A stretch of 64,000 nt of DNA from positions 15,719,365 to 15,783,364 of the forward strand of contig NC_087082.1 of the NCBI RefSeq assembly GCF_026151205.1, written 5' to 3'. Origin of the DNA: Bolinopsis microptera (lineage: Eukaryota > Ctenophora > Tentaculata > Lobata > Bolinopsidae). Below the pieces are notes generated by a model. It searched no databases, was not told the origin of the DNA, and worked only from the letters and a program-made list of their open reading frames with translations. The position numbers and the translations under genes are program-made. Shown piece after piece: positions 24,026-63,371 of this stretch (positions within the stretch are counted from its first letter, which is position 1; each line of letters begins with the position of its first letter).

Positions 24026-24379
24026 TTATTGTAAGATCAGCTCTAGAGTGCAAAACAGTACAAAGCGAAAATGTATATTGTATACCCTGACAATACCCCA
24101 ACACTTTCAAAAAGGGCTTCTACAACAATCTGAAACGAATGGTTCTTGATTGACGATGTCAATCCTTCGCATCTCGCCGATCTGCTGTGGTTGCGAGAAG
24201 CATTATTGGATGCGCGCGCGACCCAGTAGTGCATCGCGCTACAAGAATGGTTCTCGATACTACTTTAGTGGACAGTTCTCTAAAGAAGTTAAGCAAATGT
24301 TAGATAGCACTGACCATGTAATTAGCATCATCTCTTACAAACTCCACGGAATAAACAGGAAGATAAGATGAGCTTTTAT
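24026..24379 (-). pseudogene. duplicated fragment of the PLPPR-like gene (exon 1 part + intron)
   Basis: Aligns over its whole length, in the same orientation, with 16815-17063: the 3' part of PLPPR exon 1 and the start of its intron. Intron sequence is included, so this is a DNA-level duplication, not a retrocopy. The copy has lost the GTAAGT donor (GTCAGT here) and carries one B element at 24147-24244. It cannot code alone. Confidence 0.9.
24147..24244 (+). mobile_element. Element B, copy B1
   Basis: Starts TGATTGACGATGTCAATCC and ends CATCGCGCTACAA, 98 bp. It is flanked by GAATGGTTCT at 24137-24146 and 24245-24254. The parent PLPPR locus has a single unoccupied GAATAGTTCT at the matching place near 16928. 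Internal hairpins: CTTCGCA..TGCG(A)GAAG and GATGC..GCATC around a CpG-rich core. Confidence 0.93.
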
Positions 24380-24422
24380 AAATAATTTTTTTAATTTAAG
24401 CCCCACGCAAGCAGCAAATGCT

Positions 24423-24519
24423 TGATTCACGATGTCAATCCTTCGCATCTCGCCGATCTGTGGTTGCGAGAAGCATTATTGGATGCGCGCGCGCGACCCA
24501 GTAGTGCATCGCGCTACAA
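24423..24519 (+). mobile_element. Element B, copy B2
   Basis: Nearly identical to B1, flanked by GCAAATGC(T) on both sides (24414-24422 and 24520-24528). If the element is taken to begin TTGATTCACG, the target duplication is exactly 8 bp. Confidence 0.93.
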
Positions 24520-24780
24520 GCAAATGCTGGAGCAGTTATCTCCGGAAGTAAAATGAATAGAAACTTTTGGTTTTTATGCAAAAATTTTGCCTTGTAGTTG
24601 TATAAATAACGTTACCCTTTTAAGTACTAAAAAGAAAATTAGGGACATTTTAGATTTTGAGTTATCCCAAAAACATTTATTTTGGGCCTCATAAATTTCG
24701 CAGCTTTAACTTTGCAAATTTTTGTTCTTTGATTGGCTGAATCGTATCACGTGGTGATTGCATTTTTTGCAATGCTTAGC

Positions 24781-24873
24781 TTGTATGTTTACAACTTACC
24801 AGGACGCGCGCCGAGTTGGAATCGTCGACGGTCCTGTATATGGAACAGATATTTTACGAGTATCACCCGTTAA
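24781..24873 (+). mobile_element. Element A, copy A2
   Basis: Runs from TTGTATGTTTACAACTTACC to ATCACCCGTTAA, 93 bp. The exact 8-bp duplication TGCTTAGC flanks it (24773-24780 and 24874-24881). The core contains GGACGCGCGCCGAGTTGG. Confidence 0.95.
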
Positions 24874-25200
24874 TGCTTAGCGCGAGCTTCATGAGCTTGG
24901 AGGACTTCGCCGCTTCGACGCGCCGCGCAAACTATCATTTTGATTTTGCTTCGCATCGTCGATCGTTGGCCGTTCACTGTTGCTTTGCTTCGCAGAGCAA
25001 CGATCTCGATGGATTGACATCGTCGCGTCAATCATTATCAATGATCAAGCTTGATCGAGCATGCTATGGAAAGATTGACGGCCGGTGTTACTCGTCTACC
25101 TTATTTCTTCGAAGTAGCGCGCGCCGCCCGCGCTTTCTTCTCGAAATGGCCTGATGGCAAGTGCTACAAAGTAGCGCGCGCCGGGCCAGACCATTAACAA
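24874..25200. other. CpG-rich island packed with short hairpins, unexplained
   Basis: About 300 bp of GC-rich sequence in an AT-rich setting, with many small inverted repeats, for example GATTGAC..GTCAATC near 25012-25035 and repeated TAGCGCGCGCCG words near 25113 and 25173. It resembles the style of elements A-C but matches none of them. No convincing coding function; a 112-codon frame crosses it without recognisable motifs. Confidence 0.45.
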
Positions 25201-25335
25201 TGGTCAATGGAAACACTATTACTTTTACAGTAATACGCTCAGCCATGCCAATAAGTTAATTGCTGGCGGTAAAAACCGGAGCCGATAGTTCAACGATCAA
25301 CTGTAAAGTGATTTAGCACGATGATCTTCGAGATT

Positions 25336-25560
25336 CACTTCGAGATGGCCAGGCCTACTCTCATGCTGTCTATTATATGTGATGATTAATTCTGAAAAAC
25401 TAGGGACAACTGGGGAATGATCCCAGAACCTCGAGATTTCGCGTATCTTGCTCTACCAATTGAGCTACTGACCCTGATTCTCAGAGCGAAATCACCACTC
25501 ATATACAGCACAATTTTATGCTATAGACAGCATGAGAGTAGGCCTGGCCATCTCGAAGTG
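25336..25560. repeat. ~40-bp inverted repeat enclosing a tRNA-like sequence
   Basis: The arm at 25336-25376 (starting CACTTCGAGATGGCCAGG) is repeated in inverse at 25521-25560 with essentially full identity. The 144-bp loop holds, on the minus strand near 25425-25492, a tRNA-like sequence with a good A box (TAGCTCAATTGG, then TAGAGC) and a 5-bp T-stem-like CTGGG..CCCAG. The acceptor stem does not pair and the B box is poor, so it is not a functional tRNA. It is probably a SINE or MITE hybrid. Confidence 0.7.
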
Positions 25561-25807
25561 ATAATAATAATTAACTGTTTCGCAGATTGGCAATTGATCG
25601 GTGTAGTTGGTGTTGTACACACTGCACTGATAACGATATCACGTTGTACTGTGTACGTGTAATGTAAATATAGTGTGGATAAATGCGAATATATATTCTA
25701 AATAACTGATAAATCTTCGAGATTGTTCTAAAAGGGCTCCATACAATTGAAATTAGACGAATTTGAAGCGATGTATTTTAAAACGCTGATTCCAAATTAC
25801 ACCCCCC

Positions 25808-25876
25808 TTGTAGGTTTACAACCTACCAGGACGCGCGCCGAGTTGGAACAGATATTTTACGAGTATCACCCGTTAA
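25808..25876 (+). mobile_element. Element A, copy A3 (internally shortened)
   Basis: Has both A ends but lacks the ~25 bp between GAGTTGGA and ACAGATAT. Length 69 bp. The 8-bp duplication CACCCCCC flanks it (25800-25807 and 25877-25884). Confidence 0.92.
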
Positions 25877-25899
25877 CACCCCCCCCCCCCCCCGCCCCC

Positions 25900-25968
25900 A
25901 GTGTAGAGTTTCTACGATACAGGGGAAGCCGCGTACTCGTGCACGGAGGGTCATACTACGTAAGACAA
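25900..25968 (-). mobile_element. Element C, diverged truncated copy (C5)
   Basis: Matches the C consensus from TACGATACAGGGG through the GGGTCATAC end to GACAA, with several substitutions. The other end is lost in a C-rich run. Confidence 0.75.
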
Positions 25969-26073
25969 GGGTTTCGAATAGTCGTTTAGGGTCGGCTAGA
26001 AAACGTGTTGAAAAATTTACGTGACAGTTGAGTCAGTGTATTGAGTGTAGACTGATTTATTACATTATTTAAT

Positions 26074-26165
26074 TTAACGGGTGGTACCTGAAAATATTTG
26101 TTTCACAACCGTCGACGAGTCCAACTCGGTGCGCTTCTTTGAGTTTGTAGGTTATAAACCTACAA
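26074..26165 (-). mobile_element. Element A, copy A4
   Basis: Full-length A on the minus strand (TTAACGGGTGG to AACCTACAA), diverged in the core. Flanks TATTTAAT and CATATCAT are only partly alike, so the target duplication is decayed or absent. Confidence 0.85.
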
Positions 26166-26222
26166 CATATCATCCGACAGGCTGAGCGCCGCTCAGTAAG
26201 CTTTATTTTTACGTTGGATATT

Positions 26223-26609
26223 GATGAAAGCAAGCTTCTAAATTCAGGATAGCCTGTGGCAGGCAACGCCCGATTCTAATGCTTCTACAGACCTACACAA
26301 GTGCAAGTAAGTAGGTAAATATTTCATGCTAGGCATGTGGCACCCATTACGGTAACCAATAACCATCCATTGAGTTTTTGCTTTTTTGCTGTACTATATT
26401 GCACAGCTCCCCATTTAACCCTCACACACGATTTCTCGAGCATTCGGCTGGGTGGACCGGGAGGCTGCATAAATCCTATGGGATCCTTAGCAGAACGTCG
26501 ACGACGCTCACCCCACGACTAGGTAGACAGCGGGTATTGAACTTGCAACCTCACGATTGCTGGCGTTCTAAGAACTTCCCTCTAACCAACTGAGCTACCA
26601 GTACCTGGC
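26223..26609 (-). mobile_element. tRNA-derived SINE with 11-bp target duplication
   Basis: The minus-strand head at ~26605-26525 is tRNA-like: GGTACTGGTAGCTCAGTTGG carries a perfect A box, and a B-box-like GTTCAATACC follows at pol III promoter spacing. The ~310-bp body ends at 26223. CGTTGGATATT flanks the insertion at 26212-26222 and 26610-26620. The anticodon arm is degenerate. Confidence 0.85.
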
Positions 26610-26939
26610 CGTTGGATATTATTACCTATATAATTAAAAAACATGAACAATAAAACTAGAACTACTGCAATATACAATGTACAAATGTATCATTTTTCAA
26701 TTGGGAGTGCTTCTGGACTTGTTTTGCGTTTGGTTTACAATTACATTTTTCTTTCCCATTTCCGTACACTTTAATTGTAATCTACTGATCGTCTGTGTTA
26801 TTCAGTTTTACTAGCACAATGAACAAACGACCACGTACTTCCGGAGATTTACCCCAGCCAGTAAGGTTTCCTGTGTATTTTCTGAGTCGCCCGACGCCCA
26901 ATCGCAGAATCGCTCCTGTATTGGCTGACACGGAGATAG

Positions 26940-27033
26940 TTGTAGGTTTATAACCTACCAGGACGCGCGCTGAGTTGGACTCGTCGACGGTCCTAATATT
27001 TGAAACAAATATTTTACGAGTATCATCCGTTAA
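26940..27033 (+). mobile_element. Element A, copy A5
   Basis: Full-length, TTGTAGGTTTATAACC to ATCATCCGTTAA, 94 bp. Flanks GGAGATAG and GGAGATTT agree at 6 of 8 positions. Confidence 0.9.
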
Positions 27034-27348
27034 GGAGATTTTGATTGGGAACTGGGTTTTACTACCCCAGTTAATGTTTACTAAAAATAGATATTGAACA
27101 GCAATTTAAAATTGTAAATATACATATAAAAGTATGTATAAAGGCTGCACCAGCTGACTAAGAGTAATGAAACAGCGATCTCTGAACAAGATTCGCCTAA
27201 AACCAGATTAATCCCTTGAAAACTATACAGTTTTGTATAAGTGAAATAAAATGGTTAGATCCTTCGACAAAAACTAAGCACACAGAAGACAAATACTCAT
27301 AGAGCTAAACTTTTTGATTTGCTCACAACACGAAAAATATTTAGAAAC

Positions 27349-28224: not shown

Positions 28225-28343
28225 ATCGTTGATCAGTTATACACAGTGTATAGTATCCGTAAAACAAGCTGTAGCTGCGAGTATGAGATAGTTGTTGAGA
28301 TGATAAGCGCTGCTGATAACAGAGGCACAAATTAGCAACGAAA

Positions 28344-28443
28344 TAAAAGCGTGTATAACTGCACTGATAAAAGCGTGTATAACTGCACTGATAAAAGCGT
28401 GTATAACTGCACTGAATAAAAGCGTGTATAACTGCACTGAGAA
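28344..28443 (-). repeat. 24-bp tandem repeat, four copies, in LINE 5' leader
   Basis: Four copies of an AAAAGCGTGTATAACTGCAC-type unit lie ~120 bp upstream of the 291-residue LINE ORF1. Tandem 5' UTR units often act as LINE promoters (family knowledge; inferred here). Confidence 0.8.
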
Positions 28444-28674
28444 AGCGATGGCATGTGCAGCAGTGTTTTTAGCATCTGCTGCATCACGCATATAGTTGAT
28501 CTGATGTCATTGCAAAGAAGAAGAGAACGGTATTTAATCATCAACTTGTGGAAAGTTCTGCATTGCAAGTGCCCTAATGATATTGGTATCCAGCTCTCGG
28601 TGACTCTCAGACATGGTCAAAAAGCAGTTGTGCCCAGTATAGCTAAGTCCAGCAGTCAACGTAATCAAGCTTTA

Positions 28675-29092: not shown

Positions 29093-29180
29093 AAATAATA
29101 CTCCAATCCGGATTTTACAAAGTAAAGTAAGTACTAAGTAGTTATACTACTAGATTTGATTCGGAGTACTGGGTTACTGG

Positions 29181-29285: not shown

Positions 29286-29675
29286 GGATCCCCTCGGGTG
29301 ATTTCTGGGTCGGTTTCCTGTTTAACATGGCAACAGACCAGGGTGGTATAAGCACGAATGCAGGACTGACAGTGCTGAAGAAGGCTGCTCCCGGAAGTGC
29401 AGATAGCGGAGGTCACTGGACACTAGACATAGTATGCTATATAATAATATATCGGTCTGAATTTGCAATAGATACGTGCCTCCCATAATAATGTAAGATG
29501 TTCTATTTAGTCCAGCTATATTTTTCCTGATAAGAAGTTTAATCGAGGCAATATGCAATGGTATATTACCAGGAATACACACAGACAATATTATTAATAA
29601 TGACTTTTTATTTTTATAACTTTAGATTAAGAAACACTAGACGTAGACCAGTCTAAACAAATTAGGATAAATTTT

Positions 29676-29763
29676 GATTCACGATGTCAATCCTTCGCAT
29701 CTCGCCGATCTGCGAGAAGCATTATTTGATGCGCGCGCGACCCAGTAGTGCATCGCGCTACAA
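29676..29763 (+). mobile_element. Element B, copy B3
   Basis: 88-bp copy lacking ~9 bp of the first hairpin loop (no TGTGGTTGC). GATAAATTTT flanks it at 29666-29675 and 29764-29773; reading the element from TTGATTCACG gives an 8-bp GATAAATT duplication. Confidence 0.93.
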
Positions 29764-29887
29764 GATAAATTTTGGTTTCTCCAATTCGATTTTTGAGAAA
29801 AAATACATACAACAATTTATGAAAGCAACATGTAATGCATGTTTTTGTGATTTTGTCATCCTTAGCACTATAACGGGTGTATTGATG

Positions 29888-36500: not shown

Positions 36501-39500
36501 GCTGATTACCGCCACGTCTGATTCTCGATAACTATTAGCTGGCTCTTGATGGAGCTCAGCTCAGCCTTCAGCTGTTTCATTTTTTCCGCCTGAAACCGCA
36601 CAAAGTGGAACGATTCAGAAAACAATAATACCAAAGTGTCCTTCATCCTAGAGCCAGTCTTAGGGTAGGTTCTTTCAATTGCAATGGCCTCGGAAACCCC
36701 GAGAAACGTAGATCGGTTCTTGGTTGGCTACTAGCTAAACCAGAAGATATTATTATGGTACAAGAATCTCACTCTGTAGTTGAAACGGAAGACTTCTGGA
36801 GGACAATCTGGGGGGGGGAGATATTTATTTCAATCATGGTACCTCTAAGTCCACTGGGGTTACATTCCTGGTCAAACCCAATTCTAATATTAAAATTTGC
36901 AGTCACAGGATCATCACACAGGGACGTGTATCACTGTTAGAAATTGAGAAGGATTCCATCAAGTATTGCTTGGTAAACGTCTATTGTCCTAATAGCAATG
37001 ATACTTATGTTGTAGAGAACTTGTTCCTGGAAACTCTAGGACGTACAAGGGATGATTATCGTATCTTGGCTGGGGACTGGAATACTATCTTAAATAATAA
37101 TCTTGATAAATATGGTGGTAATAGTTCCCACAGTAATACTAAGCGTCAGCAATATTTGAACCAGGTGACCGCTGATCATGGCATCAGTGATATCTTCCGT
37201 CTTAGTAGGGGTAATGAGCGTGTTTATACTCACGTAAATAAACAGCACAAAACCCAAACACGCCTAGATTTCTTCCTTATAGATGATAGTCTGGTTAATT
37301 ATCCGGTCTGTAACGCAGATATTAGTCATGGTTTTCGATCTGATCACAGCTACATTTCATTATCTCTACAGGGTTCCCCCATTAAACGTGGAATAGGATA
37401 TTGGAAACTTAATAATAGCCATCTAAATAATGAGTCGTTTTTGAGTAATGTACGGGAGATTATCAATGAAACTGCTGACAGTAATTTTGATTCGTACTCG
37501 GGACTCTGGGACGTGATTAAAATGAAAATTAAAGATTTTGCGATCAGATTCGGAAAAAAAGAAAAGAAAGAAAAAGTTGCAAAAAAGAAAAAAATATCCT
37601 CTGATATTGAAGAGGTTAAAAAGATAACTGATTTTATGCAGAAAGATGATCTGCGCAAAAAATTGTATGACTTGGAATCCCAGCTTGATGGTATCATTAA
37701 AGCTGAGGTTAACGGGGCCATGACCAGGTCTAGGATTCAGTGGACAGAGGAGGGTGAAAGGTCCACCAAATATTTCTTCGGGCTGGAGAAAAGTAGAGCA
37801 AAAAAAAAGTCTATTACCAAACTTATTAACAGCGATCAGAGTGTACTACGCACACAGCAGGATATTTCTGAGCACGTAGTTAACTTTTATCAGGACATCT
37901 TTAGCTCTACGAATCCAAACGAGCATGAAATAACCGATTATATTAATTCCAGTAACCTAGATACTATTGATCAGGAGAACGCGGATAGGTTAGATAGGCC
38001 AATTTCCCTCCTGGAGATGGATAGTATTATCAGTAAATTTAAGAAAAATAAATCTCCAGGGTGGGACGGCCTCACTGCTGAATTCTACAAAGTATTCTGG
38101 GAGGACATTAAGAATATCCTATTTAACTCCTTTTTAGAGTCGGTTGATAATGGGGTTATGTCACCTTCACAACGTCTAGGAATTATAACACTTATCCCGA
38201 AACCTAAAACCCCCATTGAGTTAAACTATATAAAGAACTGGCGACCAATCACCCTTTTGAATGTAGACTATAAGATATTCACTCATATTATAAAAAATAG
38301 GATCTTAAGTTCACTTCCAACACTTATTAGTACAGCCCAATCCGGGTTTCAAAAAGGGAAGAGTACCAGCGATAATCTGATCTTAATGTATCTAACCTTA
38401 GAACATTACCATGAGAACCAAGAGGATACTGGTATGATTATGCAGGTCGACCTCCAACGGGCTTTCGACTCGGTCGAACATAAGTTTCTTTTCAGTGTCT
38501 TGGAAGGTATGGGGTTTGGAAATTATTTAATCAACTTGGTGAGAGTGGCATTTCACGCTGGTATGAGTTACGCTAACGTTAACGGACACCTTAGCAGCCC
38601 TGTTCACATACTTCGTGGCGTCCATCAGGGGAGCCCCCTTTCCCCAATTCTTTTCCTCCTAGTGTCCCAGGTACTTAGTAATAAGCTACAGTATAACCCT
38701 TATATTAAAGGCCTCAGCATTAATGGTATCGACATACTCATGAGTCTGTTTGCTGATGACACGGATCTGTACCTGGATCCCTCCCAGGCTTGCGTAGATG
38801 CAGTTATCCTAGAGCTCAACCTGTTCGGTCAGCACTCAGGCTGTAAGCCCAACATCAGTAAAACTAAGTGCATACCTTTAGGAGCTACCAGAGACAACAC
38901 TAGTCTTCGAAATTACCTTACCAGTACATACGGGGAAGACATGGTAGCTAACGAGTTTACAGCATTAGGAGTCAAGTTCGACAACACGTCTAGTGGAGCT
39001 GATCTCTGCAAAATGAACTACCACAGTAAACTTAGTAACGCCAGCACCGCTATCAACACTTGGAGTAAGAGAGACTTAACTCTGATAGGAAAGTGTACAA
39101 TTGTTAAATCTCTTATTCTTTCCCAGTTCACTTACCTTATCATACCACTAGAAACTCCTGATACTAACACCATCAGTAAAATAGACACTATGATATTTCA
39201 CTTCTTGTGGGGTTGTAAGAGGGATAAGTTGAAACGTGATATTGTTACTTCTCCTCGTGAATGTGGGGGTCTAGGTCTCTTCTATACTAACGATTTTATT
39301 ATAGGTTTAAAAGTGTCACTTATAGGAAAAGTTATCGATCCTAATTTCCAACATGCCTGGAAAAATATTATCATCAATCAGCTTTTACACCCAAATATAC
39401 CAACTGTGTGTATAGAAAACTGTCTCACATTAAAGAATACTGGTTTTACCTTTAACCTTCTTCGCCATTATAAGCTTTGGAAGTCTATTTCTTCACAGTC

Positions 39501-40913
39501 AAGTAAGAGTACAGTCAACCACTGTGTGTGGGGAAGCGACGTAATAACGGACATTGGCTCCAAGCTCTGGAACGATATTCTTATTGATAGAAATATCATC
39601 TATCTTTCTGATTTCGTTTCAGAGGAAGGTAACCTCTTAAGTTTTCAGCAATTTCTGAGAAAGTGGGGCCAAACAAGTAGTATAATCTCTTCGACTCAAT
39701 ATGCGAGTATAAAATTGGGAATACGTCGATTTAATAATACCGATACGTTTACAAGTAACATTACATTTATCGATACCCAACTTTCACTTCGCTTTTGGGG
39801 AGGTAGGAATACCCCCAACTCTAGAGATACTCCTCTCACTATCAAAGGTAGAAACATTAGAGATACCATGTCTAAGCGTTTAGATCCCAGCACCCTTCCT
39901 CCAATGAGGAACTGGAGTGCTAACCTCTCCTTAACGGATATTGATTGGATTAGTATTTTTACGGATATTTTTACTTCTTTCTCAAATAACTTCAAACTTA
40001 TTCAGTACCAATATAAGCTCCTTCACCGGATTAGTACTTGTCGGTACATGAGATATAAAATGAAGATTGAAAAAGATAGTCCAAATTGCTCGTTATGTAA
40101 TCACAACCTCGAAACTATCTCTCACATATTTATTGACTGTCCAGCCACAAGCTCTTTCCTACAGGGAGTAAATCTGTTTATTAGATCGAATATTGACGCA
40201 AATTATGACGACCCATATCGCCACTATTTGATTTGCTTAAATCACAGAGATAAAAGTGTTAACTTCATAAATTCGGTTTGCTGTTGGTTTATTGGAAGGA
40301 GTTTCCAGAACAAGGAACCCCTATAATTCTGGGAGCGTTATCTTAAACATCTTAAGCTTTTCTTATTAGGTGAAAAACCGGATATTATACGGTGCCTTAA
40401 AGACGTTATACCTTGATGACCATTTTATACCCAAAGTTCTGGATCCACTATACACTCTTGTTTATTTATTCTCTCGAAATTACAGCCGTGCCTTACCTTT
40501 ACCCTTTATTTCACAAGTTGTAGCCAGTGGAGTTATCTCCACTACTAGTATTGATATAGAGTCATATTTAAAACCAGTAGTATCTCTCCTTTTTCTCTCC
40601 ATCTTATGTGCATTTTATTACTCTATATCCACTGACTTTATTCGACGTATTATCTAAAAGAATAAAAAATTGTGTGCGTGTGTTTTTATATTTATTTTGC
40701 TACGGCGCATGTGAAACCCCAGGGCATCCAGCACCAGAGAAGCTGAAATGACACTCTCTGAACCCTTGGTGCCGCTCAGATTTTGCCTCTTGGCTGGTAA
40801 GCCGAGTCTTGATCGATTAACTCAGCTTCTTCGGTACAACACAGACCGGAGGGTACTATTAGCCGCTTTGCCGGTGGTATCCTCCTGGTGTCCTGGGGTT
40901 TGGCAGGTTCCTC

Positions 40914-43111: not shown

Positions 43112-46100
43112 CTAATCGGCCAAGATCGACACAATAGAACTTTTGTGGCCTATTTTGTCACCAGTAAGTGAAAGTTTAAGAAGTTTGATATATCCCTGCC
43201 AGATCGGCATGTCCCCTGCCTGAAATCTTTTGCTAATGTACCATTTGGCAACAATATTAAAATAATTTATAATTTGTGAAGTGTGATTACAAACTATAAA
43301 ATTAATTTTATTGGGGTCTTTGTAATTTCTATCGATTTTCCTTTTTATAAAGTCTTCAAGTATTGTGATGAAGCTATTTGTGTGGATACAATGGAGATAG
43401 ATATGAGGGATTGTTTCTAAGTATGTGTTACACAGGCTACACATGGGAGTATCTGTAACAATTTTCATTTTGTGTCTCATGTATCTACACGTCGTGATCC
43501 TCATTAAAAGCTTGTACTGGAATTGAATCAACTTAAAATTTTTAGATACTAAGAAAAATAGGTTGCTAAGAACGACCGCCCAATCTATTGGTTGATTATT
43601 TAGGTCAATAACCCATTGACGTAATGGGGACAGCTCGTTTGGGCAGATAGAGTCGTACATTTTATCCCGAATTTTACTTCCCTTCACCTGTCCAGTTACA
43701 GAATGTAAAAATTTAAGTTTTATATTTGAGTCAACAAACTCAATATTCCTTGAGTTAATAGTGGGGCAGTTATATCTCCGTATCCCCATGATAATGTTAC
43801 AGTACTCAGTTTTGGAAATAGTATTTGGAGACAACTCCCACTTGTTAATGAACATATCGTAGTTAAGGATTGTACTTTGGTCTATAGAAAGAAAATCTGA
43901 GATGTAAAATATTCCCTTATCAATCAGATGATTGTTCCAAAGTTTGGCCCCGATGTCGGTTATTGCTTGGTTGTACCACACGCAGTGATCAATAGAACCC
44001 AAGGCTGCATTTACCGAACTTATCTTCCACTCAGTGTAACAATTAAGGACGTCTTGAGTAAAATGGCAGTTGGTTTTAGCGAGACCGTTTTCTACGGAGA
44101 TGGTGATATGGTCAGGAAATTTCAGCTGCATAATCATAATATCTTTCCAAGTGTGGTGAAAGGAATTATTTAGTAGCTTGGATATGAGGCTGGTTTTAAG
44201 ACCTATAATAAAATCAGATAAATAAAAAAGTCCCAGGCCTCCATGTTCCTTATTTCGGGTAATAATCTCACGTTTTACTTTATCGCGTTTGCAACCCCAA
44301 AGAAAATGGAAAATAGCCGTGTCAAAGATTTTGATAAAGGAAGCATCCGGTCGAGGGAGAGGAGAAACAAGATATGTTATTTGGGAAAAGAGAAGGGTTT
44401 TAATGACTGTGCATTTACCCATCAGCGTCAGATCCCTCTTGCTCCATCGGTTTATCCAAGACTGAACCTTAATCAATTTATCATTATAATTACTGTTGAC
44501 AATATCCATCAGTGAGCCATCGTTCATATAAACTATACCCAAAGCGGTGAAGTTATTTGTTATAAAATCATTGCCGTATAAACTTTGAAGGGATTCTAGT
44601 AGAGTTGTATTAAGACGAGCTCGACCTAGAGGAATACATCTAGTTTTGTCGATGTTAGCTTTACACCCCGAGCACTGAGCAAAAGTTCTGAGTTCTGTCA
44701 TAACCGCCTCTACACTTTCAATTAAGGCTTTCAGAAACAGATCAGTGTCGTCTGCAAAGAGACTCTGTAAGATTTCCACACCTGATATGTTAAGACCCCT
44801 GATATTAGGATTAATCTGAATTTTATTCGAGAAAGTTTGGGCCACAATCAGAAAGAGAATAGGAGACAGTGGACTACCCTGGTGAAGACCTCTTAGAATA
44901 TAAATAGGCGAGCTTAAAAACCCATTAATATTGGCGTAGCTAAAGCATGCTTGAAAAGCCACTTTAATCAGTTTAATAATGTATTCGCTGAAACCCAATT
45001 TTTCAAGAGTACTGAAGACAAAGTTATGTTCTACCGAATCAAAGCACTTTTCAAAATCAATCTGTAAAAGGAGGCCCTCTTGTTCCGTGTCGTTGTTAAA
45101 TGATTCCAGAACCATTGACATGAGAATAAGATTATCTGCTGTACTCCTGCCCGCTTGAAAGCCTGACTGGGTTTTGCTGATTATGCTAGGGATAGCCTTC
45201 ATAATCCTATTTTTAGCTATATGTGTGAAGATTTTATAGTCAATGTTTAGCAGAGTAATAGGTCTCCAATTCTTTATGTAATTAAGTTCCACTGGGCTTT
45301 TTGGCTTGGGAATAAGAGTAAGAATACCTATTCTCTGCGAGGGCGACAAGCATCCCCTGTTAATAGATTCTAAATAGGAGTTATACATGATCTGCCTGAT
45401 ATCCATCCAAAAAGTTTTGTAAAATTCAGCAGAAAGCCCGTCCCAACCTGGAGATTTATTGTTGGTTAACTTATTTACAATAGCATCCATTTCTTGCAAC
45501 GTGATAGGCCCCTCCAGAGTTTCCGTAATTTCTTGTGGGATCTGCTTTAAATCGCTACTGGTTACATAATTATCTATCTCAGTGGGAGATGGGTTAGTTG
45601 AGTTATACAGGTCCTGATAAAAGTTAACCACGTGACTGGAGATGTTTTCCTGGTCCGTGAGGTCATTGCCTTCGATGTCTATCAGTTTACTAATACTTTT
45701 TTTCTTGCCGTTTGATTTTTCCAGTCCAAAAAAGTATTTAGTCGAGCGCTCCCCCTCCTCTGTCCACTGCACACGTGATCTAGTAATTGCACCTCTCACC
45801 TCCTGATCTATAATATGATTTAAATCTAATTCTGCTTCAAATAATTTCTTCTGTAGTATCGTACAGTTTGTTAGGTTCGAATCTTTTTTACAATCTTCAA
45901 TATCTTTTTTTAACTTTTCTTTTTTTACTGTGATTTCTTTTTTTTTCTTTTTACCAAAAGTCATTGCGAACTGTTTTATTTTGATTTTTATAACGTCCCA
46001 AAGACCCCCGTAAGAATCGAAGCTATCCTCTTTAGTATTGTCAATGATTTTCTTTATTTCCTTAATAAAATTTTGATCCAGGAGATGAGAGTTGTTAATT

Positions 46101-46939
46101 TTCCAATATCCTTTTCCGTGTGCAATAGTAGAGCCCTGGAGGGATAGCGAGATGTAGCTGTGATCAGATTTATAGCCATGACTTATTTCTGTATCACATA
46201 CAGGTAGATTGACTAGGCTATCTTGGATCAAGAAAAAATCTAATCTAGACTGAGTTTTGTACTTTTTGTTAAAATGAGTAAAAACCCGTGCCTCAGCACC
46301 TCTGTTAAGACGGAAAATATCACTAAACCCATAGTCGGTAATGCAATCATTAATGAATTTCTGGCAGCGACTATTTGCATGGGTGGCGGACCCCCCCTGC
46401 TTATCCAACATGTTGTTCAGAACTGTATTCCAGTCTCCAACAAAAATTATTTGATCATCTCGTGAACGACTGAGAGTTTCTAGAAATATGTTTTCAAGAA
46501 ATGACACATCGTCATTATTTGGGCAGTATACATTCACCAAACACAATTTGAGAGAGTCGTACTCTATTTCTACGAGGGTCGCGCGACCTTGGCTGATGCT
46601 ACGATGGTTAATAATAGTGAGATTCGAAGCATCAGGTTTAACAAGTAGGGCGATACCGGTTGAGTTTGAGGTACCATGGTTAAAGATTATCTCCCCGTCC
46701 CAAGAATTTTTCCACTCTCTCTCAACTTGAGGTGTTGAGTGTGTTTCTTGAAGACAAATAATTTTCTCAGGTTTATTTTTTAACCAGTTTAAGACAAGAT
46801 TACGTTTAATCGGGTTTCCCATACCATTGCAGTTGAAAGAACCGATTTTTGGGCATGCCAACCCACTATTGCTGTTATTTTGCGGAGTCATTGTTAATCT
46901 GAAAAATGCCCCATCCTTCCTTGGTGTAGTTCTTAACAC
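43112..46939 (-). CDS. LINE ORF2: AP endonuclease + RT + Cys/His motif, 1275 residues
   Basis: Endonuclease: IGSFNCNGMGNPIKRN (~32), QETHS (~62), VGDWNTVL (~170), SDHSYI (~256). RT: NKSPGWDGLSAEFYKTFW, NWRPITLLNIDYKIFTH, QSGFQAGRSTADNL, QIDFEKCFDSVEH, RGLHQGSPLSPILFL, and catalytic LFADDTDLF near 726. C-terminal CSLCNTYLETIPHIYLHC near 1165. The WRPITLLNxDYKI block and HQGSPLSP are typical of the L1/Tx1 side of the LINE tree rather than CR1. No internal stop. It is the closest relative in the window of the plus-strand LINE at 36.6-40.9 kb. Confidence 0.93.
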   Translation of the reverse strand: MLRTTPRKDGAFFRLTMTPQNNSNSGLACPKIGSFNCNGMGNPIKRNLVLNWLKNKPEKIICLQETHSTPQVEREWKNSWDGEIIFNHGTSNSTGIALLVKPDASNLTIINHRSISQGRATLVEIEYDSLKLCLVNVYCPNNDDVSFLENIFLETLSRSRDDQIIFVGDWNTVLNNMLDKQGGSATHANSRCQKFINDCITDYGFSDIFRLNRGAEARVFTHFNKKYKTQSRLDFFLIQDSLVNLPVCDTEISHGYKSDHSYISLSLQGSTIAHGKGYWKINNSHLLDQNFIKEIKKIIDNTKEDSFDSYGGLWDVIKIKIKQFAMTFGKKKKKEITVKKEKLKKDIEDCKKDSNLTNCTILQKKLFEAELDLNHIIDQEVRGAITRSRVQWTEEGERSTKYFFGLEKSNGKKKSISKLIDIEGNDLTDQENISSHVVNFYQDLYNSTNPSPTEIDNYVTSSDLKQIPQEITETLEGPITLQEMDAIVNKLTNNKSPGWDGLSAEFYKTFWMDIRQIMYNSYLESINRGCLSPSQRIGILTLIPKPKSPVELNYIKNWRPITLLNIDYKIFTHIAKNRIMKAIPSIISKTQSGFQAGRSTADNLILMSMVLESFNNDTEQEGLLLQIDFEKCFDSVEHNFVFSTLEKLGFSEYIIKLIKVAFQACFSYANINGFLSSPIYILRGLHQGSPLSPILFLIVAQTFSNKIQINPNIRGLNISGVEILQSLFADDTDLFLKALIESVEAVMTELRTFAQCSGCKANIDKTRCIPLGRARLNTTLLESLQSLYGNDFITNNFTALGIVYMNDGSLMDIVNSNYNDKLIKVQSWINRWSKRDLTLMGKCTVIKTLLFSQITYLVSPLPRPDASFIKIFDTAIFHFLWGCKRDKVKREIITRNKEHGGLGLFYLSDFIIGLKTSLISKLLNNSFHHTWKDIMIMQLKFPDHITISVENGLAKTNCHFTQDVLNCYTEWKISSVNAALGSIDHCVWYNQAITDIGAKLWNNHLIDKGIFYISDFLSIDQSTILNYDMFINKWELSPNTISKTEYCNIIMGIRRYNCPTINSRNIEFVDSNIKLKFLHSVTGQVKGSKIRDKMYDSICPNELSPLRQWVIDLNNQPIDWAVVLSNLFFLVSKNFKLIQFQYKLLMRITTCRYMRHKMKIVTDTPMCSLCNTYLETIPHIYLHCIHTNSFITILEDFIKRKIDRNYKDPNKINFIVCNHTSQIINYFNIVAKWYISKRFQAGDMPIWQGYIKLLKLSLTGDKIGHKSSIVSILAD

Positions 46940-50385: not shown

Positions 50386-50479
50386 TTGTAGGTTTACAAG
50401 TTACAACCTACCAGGACGCGCGCCGAGTTGGACTCGTCGTCGATATATGGAACAGATATTTTACGAGTATCACCCGTTA
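50386..50479 (+). mobile_element. Element A, copy A6
   Basis: Full-length A with a short duplication in the first hairpin. ACAATCCCA occurs on both sides a few bases away, consistent with an eroded target duplication. Confidence 0.9.
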
Positions 50480-50551
50480 TAACAATCCCACAGTTTGTTC
50501 ATTCATATACCAAAACGTATAAGCATAACCACAGAACGGTCCAAATTTACC

Positions 50552-50835: not shown

Positions 50836-50887
50836 CCCAATAAGGTGCTACCAGTAAAAATGAATGTTTATGTTAAACCGTTATGTT

Positions 50888-50966: not shown

Positions 50967-51024
50967 GTGTACTGTCTAGACTCAGAGCTCTGAGGAACAT
51001 GGGATCGTATACTATTTCGGCACG

Positions 51025-52242
51025 GTGCCACACAGGCTTGCCTTGTGCCACGCAGGCTTGCCTTGTGCCACACAGGCTTGCCTGGTGCCACGCAGGCTTG
51101 CCTGGTGCCATATTGTATCACGCGGTGACCCCCACTGCCGCTTCACTATAGTGGCGTCTTCGACGCTACAGGGGGAGCCGCGCACTTCGTGCGCGGCGGG
51201 TCATACAACGTATGACAAGTGCCATACAGGCTTGCCTGGTGCCACGCAGGCTTGCTTGGTGCCACACAGGCTTGTCTGGTGCCACACAGGCTTGCCTGGT
51301 GCCACACAGGCTTGCCTGGTGCCACGCAGGCTTGCCTGGTGCCACGCAGGCTTGCATGGTGCCACGCAGGCTTGCCTGGTGCCACGCAGGCTTGCCTGGT
51401 GCCAAACAGGCTTGCCTGGTGCCACACAGGCTTGCCTGGTACCAAACAGGCTTGCCTGGTGCCACACAGGCTTGCCTGGTGCCACACAGGCTTGCTTGGT
51501 GCCACACAGGCTTGTCTGGTGCCACACAGGCTTGTCTGGTGCCACACAGGCTTGTCTGGTGCCACGCAGGCTTGCCTGGTGCCACACAGGCTTGTCTGGT
51601 GCCACGCAGGCTTGCCTTGTGCCACACAGGCTTGCCTGGTGCCACGCAGGCTTGCCTGGTGCCACGCAGGCTTGCCTTGTGCCACGCAGGCTTGCCTGGT
51701 GCCACGCAGGCTTGCCTTGTGCCACGCAGGCTTGCCTTGTGCCACACAGGCTTGCCTGGTGCCACGCAGGCTTGCCTGGTGCCATACAGGCTTGCCTGGT
51801 GCCACGCAGGCTTGCTTGGTGCCACACAGGCTTGTCTGGTGCCACACAGGCTTGCCTGGTGCCACACAGGCTTGCCTGGTGCCACACAGGCTTGCCTGGT
51901 GCCACGCAGGCTTGCCTGGTGCCACGCAGGCTTGCATGGTGCCACGCAGGCTTGCCTGGTGCCACGCAGGCTTGCCTGGTGCCAAACAGGCTTGCCTGGT
52001 GCCACACAGGCTTGCCTGGTGCCACACAGGCTTGCCTGGTGCCACACAGGCTTGCCTGGTGCCACACAGACTTGCCTGGTGCCAAACAGGCTTGCTTGGT
52101 GCCACACAGGCTTGTCTGGTGCCACACAGGCTTGCTTGGTGCCACACAGGCTTGTCTGGTGCCACACAGGCTTGCCTGGTGCCACACAGGCTTGCCTGGT
52201 GCCACACAGGCTTGCCTGGTGCCACACAGGCTTGCCTGGTGC
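51025..52242. repeat. 20-bp minisatellite with 28-monomer (560-bp) higher-order unit
   Basis: About 55 monomers of GCCACACAGGCTTGCCTGGT with recurring variants (CGCAGG, CATACAGG, AAACAGG; TCTGGT, CTTGGT, CCTTGT). The variant order around 51029-51420 repeats from 51701 on. After subtracting element C4 the offset is 560 bp, i.e. 28 monomers. Because 20 is not a multiple of 3 and few variants make stops, most frames stay open for 350-400 codons; these frames are not genes. Confidence 0.95.
51113..51218 (-). mobile_element. Element C, copy C4, inside the minisatellite
   Basis: 106 bp. Exact 8-bp duplication GTGCCATA at 51105-51112 and 51219-51226. The matching monomer in the second higher-order unit (51779-51786) has a single GTGCCATA and no insertion. 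Confidence 0.97.
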
Positions 52243-52578
52243 CTCACATATTGATTCCCTTCATTATCTCTCTGAAGTCACGTGTTCCCTCATTTCTTAA
52301 GGATTCAATCATGTTTTAGCCGAACATACCTCACCTATCATACACATATTAGTAATATATGTATCCGTATAAAGAACAAATAAAACCCAGGTTGTTAAAT
52401 TCGCCAAATTTTCGTCAAAAAGTACAGCGTTTTTAGAGTTTTCAAAAAGTACGCGAATAATTCGCCAATTTACAACTTCAAGTTTTAATTTTTAGGGCTA
52501 TAAAATTCACCAAAAAATGCGCGAAAAATTCGGTAAAAATGCGGCTTTGGGAACGCGCAGCATTCTCGAGTCTATAAT
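52243..52578. other. AT-rich, nothing recognised
   Basis: Several short CGCCAA/TTCGCC words but no clear element borders or exon. Confidence 0.5.
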
Positions 52579-57767: not shown

Positions 57768-57801
<34 letters not shown>

Positions 57802-59543
57802 TTCAGCTGTTATTTCTACAGTGTCTCCAAGTTTACACCCGGAGGGGACATAGTCTCCAGGGTCCGTGTTTTCATGGTACACTGTGAGGGTCCACCTATC
57901 ACACCTCCCTCCCTCACAGGTACACGAGTCTCTAGAGCAGGTGTGAGTGTTGTTGTGCTTTGAGCCTCTGCTATAATAATAATGCACTACTTGCTTAATG
58001 CAGTGTTCCTTATCTAGAGACGCTCTTAACCAGGTCTTACTATCCCCTCCTGGTTGTGCAAAAGCAAAGGTGGACAGGTCCCTGTCTATAGCATTATCTG
58101 CTCCATACTTAGCCACGTCATTAGCAGCAGTCGCAGACTGAGACACAGAGGCAGGTGTTATCTCTCCTGGTTCCTCCGGTCTTAGTGCACCTGAAGTAGT
58201 GAACACTTTAAGAGATTGTCACATTATAATTTATACCATTTTCAATCAGTCAAATTAAAGAAATAGTGTTGATTTGACTTAATTATAAAAACCTGAATTA
58301 CATAATTACATAATATGTGTAATATGTATCCTGATTGATTAATTGGTTGTCTAACTTAAACCGATAATAATAATAAAGCGACGCGGCGGACCTCGTTATA
58401 ACGCGGTATTTGTAATATGCAAAATGAAAATAGTACATAAAGTTACAATTTTAAGTTTGTGATAAACTTAAAGTTGCACTGTGCAGTATGGATTAATTGT
58501 ACATGACAAAGCTCTTTCAGCATCAAGAGAATATGTGCACCAAACACTGACCTTACATATTATGTGTTTAATTCTACAAAACTTCTTATAAGTAGGAGGT
58601 GCACCATAAAAATAAACTTGCTCGGATTTTGAAAATTTTTGTACCATTGTTTTCTAGAGACTGTGAGAATTTTCACAATACCAAATTTGTCATACCTTTT
58701 TGGAAAGATCAGTGAGTTTCGCCTAGGTGCCATATTTGATGGTGCGCGGCTTTTGGAGCAAAATTAGCTGTAAAAGTCGCGCAATTTGACCAAATTTGAC
58801 CAAATTCGTTGATTTTTGTCGTATTATTAATTGGATATATCTTCAGTTCCTTGAATGAGATCATTCTGAAAATTGGCGACGACCTTCCAATAGGGCTTTC
58901 ACAACTGTCCGAAAAATTTGGTGGATATCGGAGTTGATATAGTGATCAAAATGGGGCAAAATACGCTGCTTTTAGCTGTAACATAATGTCTGATGGTTGG
59001 ATATGCTTTAAACTTGTCGGACACCTTCCTTGTAAGTCTATGAGTAAGCTTACCAATTTTTGTTGCAATCGGAGGTCGGGAAGGATACTTAATATCTATT
59101 TGTTTGAAGAAAATTGTGCTGGCCGAAATTAGCGCTAAAAAACCATCCTACAGTCGGCACGCGCGGCTCACTGTCGATGGCGCACTACTATACCTATTAT
59201 AAGTCCACAAGCTCGGTATATGTGACAATTTGCCTTCAAAATCTTGTAGGTTTACAACCTACCAGGACGCGCGCCGAGTTGGACTCGTCGATGGAACAAA
59301 TATTTTACGAGTATCTCCCGTTAATCAAAATCAAACCTCGTTAAAATACAGACCTTGCTATAACGCGGTTTTTTTTGGGCTAAATTATCTCCTGAGGAAT
59401 AGTCTCCTCCATCGATGCGCGTTATAACGACGTAAGCTACTGTAATACTTATTAAAATTTAAATTCATCATTAGATTAAATTTATCCTTACCTGTTAGGG
59501 GTAACCAAAGCAAAGTCGTAATAATGATCACCGTCGTTTTCAT
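57339..59543 (-). CDS. secreted protein with discoidin/F5-8-like and sushi (CCP) domains, 3 exons seen
   Basis: Exon 1 (59543-59492) encodes a signal peptide, MKTTVIIITTLLWLPLT. Exon 2 (58190-57756) encodes ~130 residues with ASVSQSATAANDVAKYGADN, AIDRDLSTFAF, TWLRASLDK and IKQVVHYYYSR, the start of a discoidin (F5/8 type C) or F-type-lectin-like jelly roll, plus a six-Cys loop (CSRDSCTCEGGRC). Exon 3 (57524-57339) is a sushi/CCP-like module (CEELSL..VQCETGF..ARCMDG..PLCDI). Exon 2 ends in a 33-nt G run giving 11 Gly before a CCAC|GTGAAT donor; splicing before the run also fits the phase. No membrane helix was found. Sushi plus lectin-like modules are typical of extracellular recognition or complement-like proteins; ligand unknown. 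The 3' end is unresolved: a 19-nt microexon at 56968-56950 and a stop-containing exon near 56.75 kb would fit. Confidence 0.72.
57769..57801. repeat. 33-nt C run (poly-Gly codons on minus)
   Basis: A C33 homopolymer at the exon 2 / intron border of the discoidin-sushi gene. The length is a multiple of three, and its accuracy depends on the assembly. Confidence 0.85.
58560..59215. other. non-coding repeat-like block, unidentified
   Basis: Long stretch in the intron between exons 1 and 2 of the discoidin-sushi gene. Its base composition and word use (CGAAATTAGCGC, GGTCGGG, GCGCGGC) resemble the foldback arms at 11.3-11.9 kb in style but do not align with them. No TIRs seen. Confidence 0.35.
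59244..59324 (+). mobile_element. Element A, copy A7
   Basis: 81 bp, with a short internal deletion after GACTCGTCGA. Exact 8-bp duplication TCAAAATC at 59236-59243 and 59325-59332. Confidence 0.95.
59347..59444. mobile_element. 98-bp pogo-like MITE
   Basis: The right end in inverse reads TACAGTAGCTTACGTCGTTATAACGCG. The left end reads TACAGACCTTGCTATAACGCG. These are the TATAACGCG-type ends common in pogo/Tigger elements, with TA at both borders. Related debris occurs near 58383-58415 and 62036-62066. Confidence 0.75.
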
Positions 59544-59544
59544 G

Positions 59545-60666
59545 TTCTGGCTTCTGATATATTTAATTTTTTACATATGTACTACAAATACATAATTTAG
59601 TTTATTAGGACTGATAAAGTGATAATAATCAAATTTAACAACAAAAATATTTTTACCTTAAATATCAAATGTGACAAAACTATTTTATTATTGTTTGATA
59701 ATCTCATATCAGCGGACTTCGGAGACTTAAAAATATTTGACAGAATCTAAAAGATTTTTAATTACTGTATGATCCCTCTAATTCTGTTACGGTCTCACCG
59801 CGTGGAATTGATCAGTGATTAGGGACATGATTGACGTCCCTGGAACTGGACACCTTATAGATAAGATAAAACTATATGGAAAAGACAATAAACTCATTTC
59901 GATTACTGAGCACAGATTTGTGAAATATTAAAGTCTGTCTCTAAAAATATTATTTTTCACCATAAGTTTTTCCTTAAACAAAAAAAATAATGGTAAGAAC
60001 TAATGGATAAGAAGAAGACTTTTATAAGCTCCCCGACGCGATACACGAGTCCAGGATAGCGTTAGCCCTTAACGTTTATGTGCAGCCGGCATCAATCGAA
60101 TAATTTGTACGCTGTTCAGTGTTCTAGATATGAGAGCGTGCAAAAGAAAACCCTGACCCTAACCCTTAAATAGTGTACTGATCTACGAGAAAAGGACCGA
60201 GGTGATCTTTGTGTGTCACGTGTACCCATCGCCTTGCAATTGCCTTTGACCTGATGCCTCTTACGAGGTTCTTAGATAAGCTGATAACTAATGCACGATT
60301 AAGCTGGTGAGTTGGGGCAGCCTAATGATTTGTGAAAGAATCAGGTCTCATCTGTAGGTTTGAATATTCATCGTTACTAGAAAATCTGGGCAAGCCAAGT
60401 GGTCAGTGAAAGAATCAGGTCTCTTCTCCTAGTACAGCAGATCTGAATATATGAATATTTATTCTTATCAGAAAACCAGGCCGGAGAGTTTTGCAGTACA
60501 TGGCATGCGCCATGCAATAAAAAAAGGTGAGGGATCGTGAATGGTGCAGATAAAGATCATTTAACGATTTAATGATATCATGCTCACAAAATACTTACAG
60601 TTACAGCCCAACAGGTAACATACCTAGTCCTAAGATAATGATCCCACTCGCGAATTTTAAAATTCT
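59545..60666. other. intergenic, nothing coding
   Basis: Includes an imperfect ~70-bp direct duplication around 60335-60395 and 60400-60470 (sharing AGAATCAGGTCTC and CAGATCTGAATAT words). No exon recognised. Confidence 0.5.
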
Positions 60667-61164
60667 GACTGGACCGAATTTTATTACCGAGAGTTTATCA
60701 ATATCATCTTCGCAAAAAACCATATTTTGTGAATCTGTATAACCTTATCAACTGGTTAACTGGACAAAGGGACAAACAGTGCAGTTAGGAAATAGCGCAA
60801 GTAAAAGAGCGCACAAGAGATTCTATGTGAGTTTTAATTGTTTCCTATATAACCGCGTCATTCTATTCACTACATTCGGCTCGTTATGTGATTAGGACCG
60901 AGCTGTTAAGAATCTTTAGATCGCCTCTTCCAGGGATCCTCTAGTCTAAGTCAGCCTCCCTCGAATACCCCGCGAACTATTACGATTTCTCGTGGAAGAG
61001 GCTGGCATTTGCCGTGTGCAGTAATGAAAACCGATTAAACCCGCCTGGACAAAGGGACACACAGTGCTGTTAGGAAATAGTGGACTGAGATGTTTTACAC
61101 AGATTTATAGAATATAGTTTTTTGCGAAGACGGTAAATTATTGTCAATATAATTCGGTCCAGTC
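60667..61164. mobile_element. ~500-bp inverted-repeat element with internal direct repeats
   Basis: GACTGGACCGAATTTTATTA at the left recurs in inverse at the right border (about 61090-61164), with ~75-bp imperfect arms including TTTTTTGCGAAGA. Inside, TGGACAAAGGGACA followed by CAGTG..GTTAGGAAATAG occurs at 60761 and 61045 in direct orientation. Non-coding. Confidence 0.7.
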
Positions 61165-62379
61165 AGTTATTAACAAACTTCTTTTTACAACAACTCTACT
61201 GCATATTTAGAGAAAAATGCAACTAAGAACGACAATTCATGAGCCGTTTTTTAATAATTAGAAGAATGGGAATTTCTAAGGTAGATGGATGTGAGTGTAA
61301 TCATTTGTACAGAACAACACACCACCTTTACTGTCTCGTCAACGAAAAGATGATGGGTCTGACAAATAATCATAAAAAAACTGAAAGTCAAAAAGATATC
61401 ATTAAACTTATTGTAAACTAAAACTTTTATAAATTTCTGACTAACAGTTTGGTAAATGCAATTTTTCCTACCAAAATTTGATTTTCCTCAGGTATCCCTC
61501 AAAACAACCACTGCAGAGTCCCGTCCTGAAAATCCTCTCAGTCCTCACGTTCCTTTATAATTATACTTGGAGTTAATCGATCTTCCTATAGCTAACGACT
61601 ATACGAACAGGCTCACTTGCAGTACCTTGAATAAATACGCTAAGCTCGCAGCAGCCTGGCTAATACTCGTGGTGCCCTAAATGGTGCTTTTTGTTCTTCT
61701 CTTTTCAACCTGTTGAATATAAAGATGACTTAGTCTGTTTGTAATCCCGTATGAGATTAACAAGGACAGACAGGCTTGGTAAGTTTAACAAGAGTGTGAC
61801 TGCAATAGTTATAGTATATATTCTCTTAGCACAATGATCCTAGTGGCAAGTTACTTAGGGTATGGTGAAATATCGTTTTACTTTTATCATTGAATTCAGA
61901 ATCTAGTCTCTTACTTTGTGGCTTCTATGGAAATCTATAAATAAACGGACAATGAACTATTGGAGCTGAGAAAGGAGTGACAGTTACATTACGATAACTC
62001 CATAGTAATTACAGAATTTCCTCGGTATAACTATAAGTAAAACGCGCCTCGATATAACGCGGACCGAAAAAGGAAATACAGTGGCCACAGTCGACTCTAT
62101 CCATTTTTGGGGTTTGGCATGGGCAAAAACAATCACAGAATCTTAGGTATTACTTAAATATAATATACTTGTTTGTTGCAGATTCTCTGGCGCGAAACAA
62201 TGAAGAGAACAAGTTAGAATTTGACAAGATAAGCAAAGGTTGCTATGGAAGAGCATTTTGATCGGTTTTGTGGCAATTGTGTTGTGTTTAAAGTGTTTTA
62301 TGTTTTATTGGGCTGTATGGGATGGATATTTTGTTGATGTGATTAAAACTTTCTTTTAAGGAATACTCCTAGCTAAATA
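61165..62379. other. intergenic, nothing recognised
   Basis: AT-rich, with a small pogo-end fragment near 62036-62066 (CGATATAACGCGGACCG). No gene seen. Confidence 0.5.
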
Positions 62380-63371
62380 CTTTATCGGACCTTATTTGGA
62401 CGGACATTACTTGAACGATGGAGGCCCTAACGTTCATTTTAATGTCCGTTCAATTAAAGTCCGTTCATTTTTTTCAAAACTTCTAACTTTTCTTCAAAAA
62501 TTCTAACTTTTCGTCCAGAATATGACAACTATGAGAACTTTATTGTGCCGTAAGTTAACAACAGAACGGTTCTCCTTGATCTGCCGGAGGCACAGAAAAC
62601 GTTAATGGTATATGATGTTTTCAAGGGTTACTTGGCGGAAAAAGTCAACGAAATTATGGTACTCAACGACTTAGTTCATGAGCTAGTCCCCGCCAACATG
62701 ACAAACTTGTTCCAGCCTCTAGATATTACGGTAATCGTGTTGCCAAGGACATTGTCCGACGTTGTTATAGTTCATATTACTCAGGGGAGGTAATGAAACA
62801 GTGCTAGGAAAGCTGATCCAGGTGATGTTAAGGTTAACCTAAAGTTGTCTAAGATAAAACCACTTCACGCCGAATGGCTTGTAAAAGTTTACACTGAAAT
62901 GCAGGACCGGGGTAGTTTGATGAAAAAAGGTTTCCATAAAGCTAGCAATCACTGATGCTTTATTAACGGGTGATACTCGTAAAATATCTGTTCCATATAT
63001 TACAGCTGACCGTCGACGAGTCCAACTCGGCGCGCGTCCTGGTAGGTTGTAAACCTACAAATGCTTTAAGCATGGACTATAATTTAGTATTTCTTGCACG
63101 AAAACCCATTTGATGAAGATGATATGTGATATTAGACACTGATCATGTGCACATATTTTAAAATGTTTACTGCTGAACGACTGCTTTTCTTACTTTCTGA
63201 ATAAAAAATGGATTTAAAAATCATTTGCTGAAATAAAAAAACGTTAAAAAGAAAGAAAAAGAATTCGGATTTTTGATGGCTTTGAATGCCTTCTAGCGTG
63301 CATATTAATGTCCGTTCATAATTATGTCTGTTCATTTAATGTCTGTCCAGATAATAGTAGAGGCTCTTACG
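62380..63371 (+). mobile_element. decayed pogo-like DDE transposon with subterminal GGACGGACATTA repeats
   Basis: Left end TTATCGGACCTTATTTGGAC followed by GGACATTA. The right end, in inverse, reads TATTATCTGGACAGACATTA. The interior codes, in pieces, for the C-terminal part of a jerky/pogo-type DDE transposase: LPEAQKTLMVYDVFKGYLA, VHELVPANMTNLFQPLDITV, then after a one-base shift near 62730 GNRVAKDIVRRCYSSYYSG, then LKLSKIKPLHAEWLVKVYTE. The N-terminal helix-turn-helix and the first catalytic Asp residues are missing, so this is an internally deleted fossil. An element A copy sits inside it. Confidence 0.78.
62963..63060 (-). mobile_element. Element A, copy A8, nested in the pogo-like fossil
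   Basis: 98 bp, TTAACGGGTGATACTCG to AACCTACAA. Exact 8-bp duplication ATGCTTTA at 62955-62962 and 63061-63068. Confidence 0.96.

Follow-up and report, generated by a model that had tools for sequence, protein, structure and literature searches.

Internally deleted elements of the Ac/Ds and P systems arise by abortive gap repair. Here, we describe families of very short repeated elements in the ctenophore Bolinopsis microptera, beginning from a 64,000-nucleotide stretch of contig NC_087082.1 (G000:C11:15719365-15783364; this whole stretch is called the window) in which a sequence-only reading had picked out three such families, A, B, and C; the genome searched comprised 264.65 Mb in 232 contigs. 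These elements resemble the Ac/Ds and P deletion derivatives in having conserved ends and an end-joined interior with filler, but here the element is only ~100 bp, and the seam lies near one site and is different in nearly every copy. Mar, a hAT miniature inverted-repeat transposable element (MITE) of Drosophila, is alike in its 8-bp duplications, internal-deletion derivatives, and highly similar ends (PMC3517528), but its tips are CAG(G/A)GGTAGGC and its duplications nnnTAnnn, whereas the tips here begin with TT and contain a palindrome each, the duplications follow neither of the two hAT motifs considered below and are partly of 9 bp, and the seam is nearly copy-specific. Merlin elements also have 8- or 9-bp duplications, and one Merlin family has very divergent ends (PMC8101967); their tips are GG, however, rather than TT, and no Merlin frame was found between tips of the present kind at two 2-kb loci. 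The left end of Hermes (PMC10368747) carries a near-tip quasi-palindrome, which is bound there by two BED domains; it occupies bp 11-27 at one end of a 3-kb element, whereas here palindromes occupy bp 3-19 at both ends of ~100-bp elements and recur in families without common sequence. The elements described below are non-autonomous cut-and-paste DNA transposons, which is a known kind, and they show the MITE traits of being short, non-coding, and present in many copies with a target duplication of fixed length. Their form was not found described in the literature searched, in which no title or abstract start referred to such elements.

A, B, and C are genuine families of inserted mobile elements, present at the places first given. 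The copies in the window are listed in Table 1; the exact 8-bp duplications that the sequence-only reading gave for A2, A3, A7, A8, C1, C2, C4, B2, and B3 were all verified. The window was scanned for an 8-bp duplication joined to TT and a 7/3/7 stem (one mismatch allowed), with the reversed sequence of either strand as the control: the matches were copies of A, B, and C only, and the control gave none. Copy A3 was missed because the scan skipped duplications with fewer than three different bases. The site of C4 is also present empty in the window, in the same array at 51698-51878 (99.4%), and over the whole data set, 15 of 194 copies had empty-site relatives. A set of 173 copies was called on their ends alone (at most four mismatches at each of the two ends, with repeats removed by their flanks). 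Exact flanking matches of 8 or 9 bp were present in 103 of them, one copy had 7 bp, one had 5 bp, and 68 had 0-3 bp; the proposed insertion by a fixed-length staggered cut is thus well founded, and no spread of duplication lengths was seen. The statistics on the ninth base and on target sites used a larger set of exact duplications only (108 copies). Among these, the ninth base also matched in 0/17 copies of C, 7/28 of A (chance level), 23/31 of B (P = 6e-8), 6/12 of D, and 4/13 of G, the last two being families introduced below. The duplication is therefore 8 bp in A and C, and also in a further family, F, but mostly 9 bp in B, including window copy B1, and the single fixed length of 8 bp first proposed has to be given up. 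Elements nested in others with their own duplications were also found: D in C (L007), A in D (L023), and D in G in D (L055). Many copies, hairpins, and small size would suit retroposed or simple hairpin repeats that need no transposase, but the fixed 8- or 9-bp duplications, the two defined tips, and the empty sites make that explanation hardly credible; retroposition itself is ruled out by the fixed duplication length, and no poly-A tail was seen at the aligned ends (as viewed in the alignments, without a separate count). At L015:402-720, a C and then a B2 element stand side by side with the target duplication GGGACCTC present three times, and at L010:2105-2455, a B and a C element stand side by side with a common duplication (CACTTCAC), as though one site had taken an insertion twice.

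The shared type of end that was first noticed is real, and the likeness is stronger than noted. Each left tip consists of TT, a 7-bp stem, a 3-bp loop, and the second 7-bp stem, giving a palindrome of 17 bp that begins 2 bp in from the tip (bp 3-19); right tips have the same form but are less perfect. The left tips are TT-GTAGGTT-TAC-AACCTAC in A, TT-GATTGAC-GAT-GTCAATC in B1, and TT-GTCATAC-GTT-GTATGAC in C. Left and right tips are alike in shape and in the leading TT, but hardly in sequence, and they do not form terminal inverted repeats by sequence. A scan for the same end shape across 60 loci of 3 kb each yielded 143 matches versus 8 in the reversed control, counts in which repeats were kept, some loci overlapped, and many B copies were counted on both strands. 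The families are accordingly more than three, for the scan added B2, which is related to B (TTAATTGACGATGTCAATTC..CTACAA), D (TTGACCATTGTTAATGATC..CATCCGTCAA), E (TTGATTGACGATGTCAATCCGTCG..GTCCTCCAA), F (TTGATACATGTTACGTATC..CGTATGTCAA), and G (TTACCTGGGGACCCCAGG..GCCCAGTAA). The 16 consensus ends are partly non-independent, since B and B2 have most of a right end in common and B, B2, and E have similar left ends. Together they pair at 92 of 112 stem positions: 53/56 in the left ends, those of B2, D, E, F, and G having been chosen by this very trait, and 39/56 in the right ends, which were not so chosen. Right ends alone thus depart from the 0.27 per position expected (P = 3.7e-11). Other offsets or loop sizes gave 15-37 pairs of 112, or 72-81 when they kept the same dyad axis.

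The very small size first reported is confirmed, at mostly ~57-130 bp. Other general properties hold for some families and not others. CpG richness, as first claimed, is found in A, B, B2, C, and D (observed/expected 1.4-1.8 versus 0.72 in the window) but not in the later family G (0.79). The description of the elements as made of short hairpins fits C and D, whose single strands fold better than shuffled sequence (z of -4.0 and -3.4, one copy of each family being folded), weakly fits A (-1.9), and fails for B and B2 (-0.4 and +0.4). The four end patterns searched each gave ~1,800-2,900 matches genome-wide. Allowing one mismatch in 28 bases, the A left end matched 888 + 953 times, and the B right end (16 bases, one mismatch) and the D right end (23 bases, two mismatches) matched 1058 + 1089 and 1167 + 1084 times, all with a control of 0; the exact left 10-mer of C matched 1425 + 1483 times, with 144 + 189 in the control. 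There were no exact matches of the A left end in viral contigs.

Target choice links five of the families. With both flanks read towards the duplication, the 108 copies have C at -3 or G at +3 in 95 of 216 flanks (P = 7e-16), G at -4 in 75/216 (P = 2e-7), and A at -1 in 83/216 (P = 0.006). The C-3/G+3 preference is separately present in A (18/56, P = 0.02), B (27/62) and C (18/34, both P = 2e-5), D (17/24, P = 1e-7), and G (11/26, P = 0.008). Because these five families lack sequence likeness but have a common target preference, they are probably moved by one kind of enzyme, which supports the suggestion that one transposase serves families that do not align. Neither described hAT duplication motif is in evidence: the Ac-group motif nTnnnnAn is not enriched (T at position 2 in 18/57 and A at position 7 in 21/57, background 0.30), and the middle-pair TA of the Buster-group motif nnnTAnnn is not in excess in 73 duplications of 8 bp. 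Tol2, a hAT element, does conserve positions ±3 and ±1 outside its duplication, but with other bases than here (PMC2753552).

The second unusual property lies inside the elements. Alignments of A, C, D, G, B, and B2 show a hypervariable center, with trims and fillers, between two conserved side blocks; GTCGACGG and GGAACAG of family A, for instance, are joined via TCCAATATAT, TCCTGTATAT, TCAGCTGTAATATAT, TCAGAT, and others. Some fillers, as in L025, L017, and window copy C2, repeat sequence from nearby. We compared 76 copies that had an exact duplication and both side blocks (at most six mismatches per block), and these contained 71 distinct centers. Where two copies had identical side blocks (57-105 bp; 71 pairs), the center was also the same in only 3 pairs, one of them being the duplicated locus L033/L034, and none of the 54 pairs with a single side-block difference has a common center. 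The seam is also confined in position: in A, 29 copies depart from the reference on the left, 24 of them between positions 47 and 60. We infer that roughly once in each transposition the element breaks near its center and the ends are rejoined with templated filler, and we place the seam in the transposition cycle because seam diversity exceeds side divergence.

It is possible, of course, that seams were made after insertion, by breakage and repair of hairpin-rich centers or by decay, and apart from transposition. The centers of C and D do fold well (one copy each), and older B copies deviate more from the reference center (17 copies, rho 0.60, P = 0.01). Still, 68 of the 71 pairs without side-block differences already have unlike centers, there is no pooled correlation between the age proxy and center deviation (101 copies, rho 0.16, P = 0.12), and the single B and B2 centers folded no better than shuffles; seam formation after insertion is thus unlikely. 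The duplicated locus L033/L034, being 100% identical, is uninformative on seam timing. A second apparent duplicate, L079 (G000:C4:388838-392461) against L064, was set aside as an old duplication because it looks like an indel-rich, error-rich second version of one locus, and it is probably an assembly duplicate. Random pairing of element halves was also rejected: none of 105 duplication-flanked elements combined two left tips, two right tips, or tips clearly from different families, the exceptions being two cases in which entire elements are neighbors and five inside the related B/B2/E group. An A element at position 1745 of L053 contains the right part of B, and a B2 element at position 530 of L015 contains the right part of A, in both cases without the foreign piece's own left tip. 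As these pieces are half-like, end joining with foreign pieces does occur.

Long elements with the same ends and an internal transposase frame, which the sequence-only reading had proposed to look for, were found only in part. Copies of family F with common tips and 8-bp duplications range from 57 to 7,628 bp, the long ones including L081:136-6756 (6,621 bp, GGCCAGCG) and L083:136-7763 (7,628 bp, CTCAAAAC), and these contain a damaged hAT gene; one piece of it occurs in 13 copies at 97-100%. The reference for this gene is what reads as a whole hAT element at L085:1382-5953 (G000:C6; 4,572 bp, 8-bp duplication GTTGGAGC) with a Dimer_Tnp_hAT match of 1.9e-20. Six collinear pieces of its gene were recognized in L082 and L083 and five in L081, at 40-87%. 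One could therefore read all of the families as hAT, with the gene in long F as their transposase, or its remains, and with tips that changed in this lineage; the Tol2 flanking preference at the same ±3 and ±1 positions (PMC2753552) is in keeping with this. The sister element L085, however, has tips CAAGGGTCGACCGAG/CAGGGGTCGACCGAG (CARGGG), unlike the TTG/TTA tips here. Tips of hAT elements are generally of the CA(A/G)GG type, as in L085 and Mar. The dimerization (C-terminal) piece has no match in the F copies, and a stretch inside F (L081:6066) matches the L085 tip at 13/15 positions, where ~0.03 such matches would be expected by chance (an estimate). Given the CARGGG tips of L085 and this tip-like stretch, the hAT gene may sit in the long F copies as a nested passenger, and it is weaker evidence that a hAT enzyme moves all families. 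The Ac and Buster motifs are, moreover, not enriched, and B duplicates 9 bp. We regard the hAT explanation as somewhat unlikely. Pfam and PDB searches with pieces of the F gene gave nothing above the cut-off, and another F copy, L080, had no match to the hAT pieces and was otherwise read for frames only. The long F copies contain 91-bp tandem arrays (L081:4183-6052, 20 units; L083:3861-7055, 35 units). L085 has CCTCGG repeats near its ends and is flanked, as judged by eye, by two pieces of a frame like that of a long interspersed nuclear element (LINE).

Other enzymes were sought by domain. The genome gave at least 150 hAT, 88 Mutator-like (MULE), and 58 Merlin (DDE_Tnp_IS1595) matches, whereas KDZ/Zisupton gave 0, as it did in the control genomes. 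A Merlin (IS1595-type) transposase as the mover gives the best fit to duplications of 8 or 9 bp, several of its matches lie in open frames of 318-337 amino acids, and very unlike 5' and 3' ends have the precedent of one described family (PMC8101967). The conserved GG tips recorded there disagree with TT, though, and the two 2-kb Merlin loci lacked a TT..AA tip pair with a duplication, their own tips not being found either; we consider a Merlin mover rather doubtful. MULEs usually give 9-bp duplications, and some of their matches are in frames of ~480-500 amino acids. As A, C, and F have duplications of 8 bp, a MULE transposase is a very unlikely mover. Long copies of A were rejected as an autonomous form: L011 and L084 share ~1.25 kb, but no right end of A was seen in L084 over 7 kb, and six of its frames gave no transposase domain. 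No PF05699 match lay within 20 kb of the long A places listed, as judged by eye among 150 matches listed of 365 candidates. Three open frames, assigned by their domain matches, are perhaps recently active, namely a 513-amino-acid hAT frame at L086 (G000:C12) and Merlin frames of 318 and 337 amino acids at L087 (C11) and L088 (C3).

Our preferred reading, which we think fairly probable as a whole, is that the elements are non-autonomous, moved by a DDE-type transposase of one kind with an 8- or 9-bp stagger through paired-site palindromes, and re-joined in the center. The transposase would cut its target with that stagger, and each 7-3-7 palindrome would be a putative paired binding site for transposase protomers, for which the palindrome next to the Hermes tip, to which two paired BED fingers bind (PMC10368747), is a precedent. 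Most transposition cycles would break the element in its middle, which is then closed by end joining. The simplest route would be repair of the donor excision gap that fails in the center; alternatively, the transposase might hold two halves, to be joined at their inner ends after insertion. The extreme form of the latter is quite improbable: the element would be too short to bend between its bound tips and be inserted as two held halves that are afterwards connected at their inner ends, giving a new seam per insertion much like a V(D)J coding joint, by an undescribed transposase lineage that reads the palindrome at each tip.

Several observations weigh against the preferred reading. No autonomous element was found for A-E or G. 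The palindrome fails in the E right tip (2/7 pairs), and the left palindromes of D-G, being the search criterion, are no independent evidence. The stagger of B is unlike that of A, C, and F. The C-3/G+3 preference was seen in 2/8 flanks of E, which is too small a sample, and 2/6 of F; eight distinct exact-duplication sites of F, long copies included, gave by eye 4/16, no excess, with a pyrimidine at -3 or a purine at +3 in 12/16. Family C has no G-4 preference (2/34). The age trend within B perhaps places its seams after insertion, and gap repair alone leaves the single seam position unexplained.

Table 1. Copies of families A, B, and C in the window.
Copy	Positions	Strand	Target duplication	Remarks
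A	11981..12031	+		right part only (truncated), adjoins poly-C run; repeat family D14 (sequence)
B1	24146..24244	+	9 bp, GAATGGTTC	
B2	24422..24519	+	exact 8 bp, GCAAATGC	copy of family B
A2	24781..24873	+	exact 8 bp, TGCTTAGC	
A3	25808..25876	+	exact 8 bp, CACCCCCC	69 bp, short center; low complexity, inside C run
A4	26074..26165	-	none (by eye)	diverged
A5	26940..27033	+	6/8 (by eye)	
B3	29674..29763	+	exact 8 bp, GATAAATT	
C1	49828..49926	+	exact 8 bp, GGTTCACA	
A6	50386..50480	+	only offset ACAATCCCA repeat (by eye)	first hairpin longer
C2	50552..50661	+	exact 8 bp, AATTTACC	repeated CCCCCTGTAT in center
C3	50680..50785	-	7/8 (by eye)	
C4	51113..51218	-	exact 8 bp, TATGGCAC	within 20-bp tandem array
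A7	59244..59324	+	exact 8 bp, TCAAAATC	
A8	62963..63060	-	exact 8 bp, TAAAGCAT	

The window has other repeats. The array that hosts C4 extends over 51004-52320, has a 20-bp unit (GGTGCCACACAGGCTTGCCT), and contains several long mechanical frames. Diverged sequences at 24913-25024 and 25086-25209 (minus strand) match E- and D-type elements at other loci, and a separate repeat of ~380 bp at 26222-26599 has many genomic copies at 84-97%. A full-length second copy of the region 24000-27100 was sought in the genome, and none was found. LINE frames with endonuclease and RVT_1 domains (1.7e-30 and 3.3e-30) lie at 20056-23292 and 36970-40326, and another long frame at 43112-46939 resembles them.

The observation from which this work began is real and was under-called. 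The seam diversity hints at an unusual form of DNA movement or repair; if the seam is made anew with each jump, thousands of natural end-joining events would stand recorded in one genome, and the way in which a transposase brings together the ends of very short DNA could be tested directly on these elements. As tip shape and target choice are common to the families and sequence is not, the suggestion is that the transposase may read palindrome geometry, and tips read in that way would escape sequence-based repeat catalogues.

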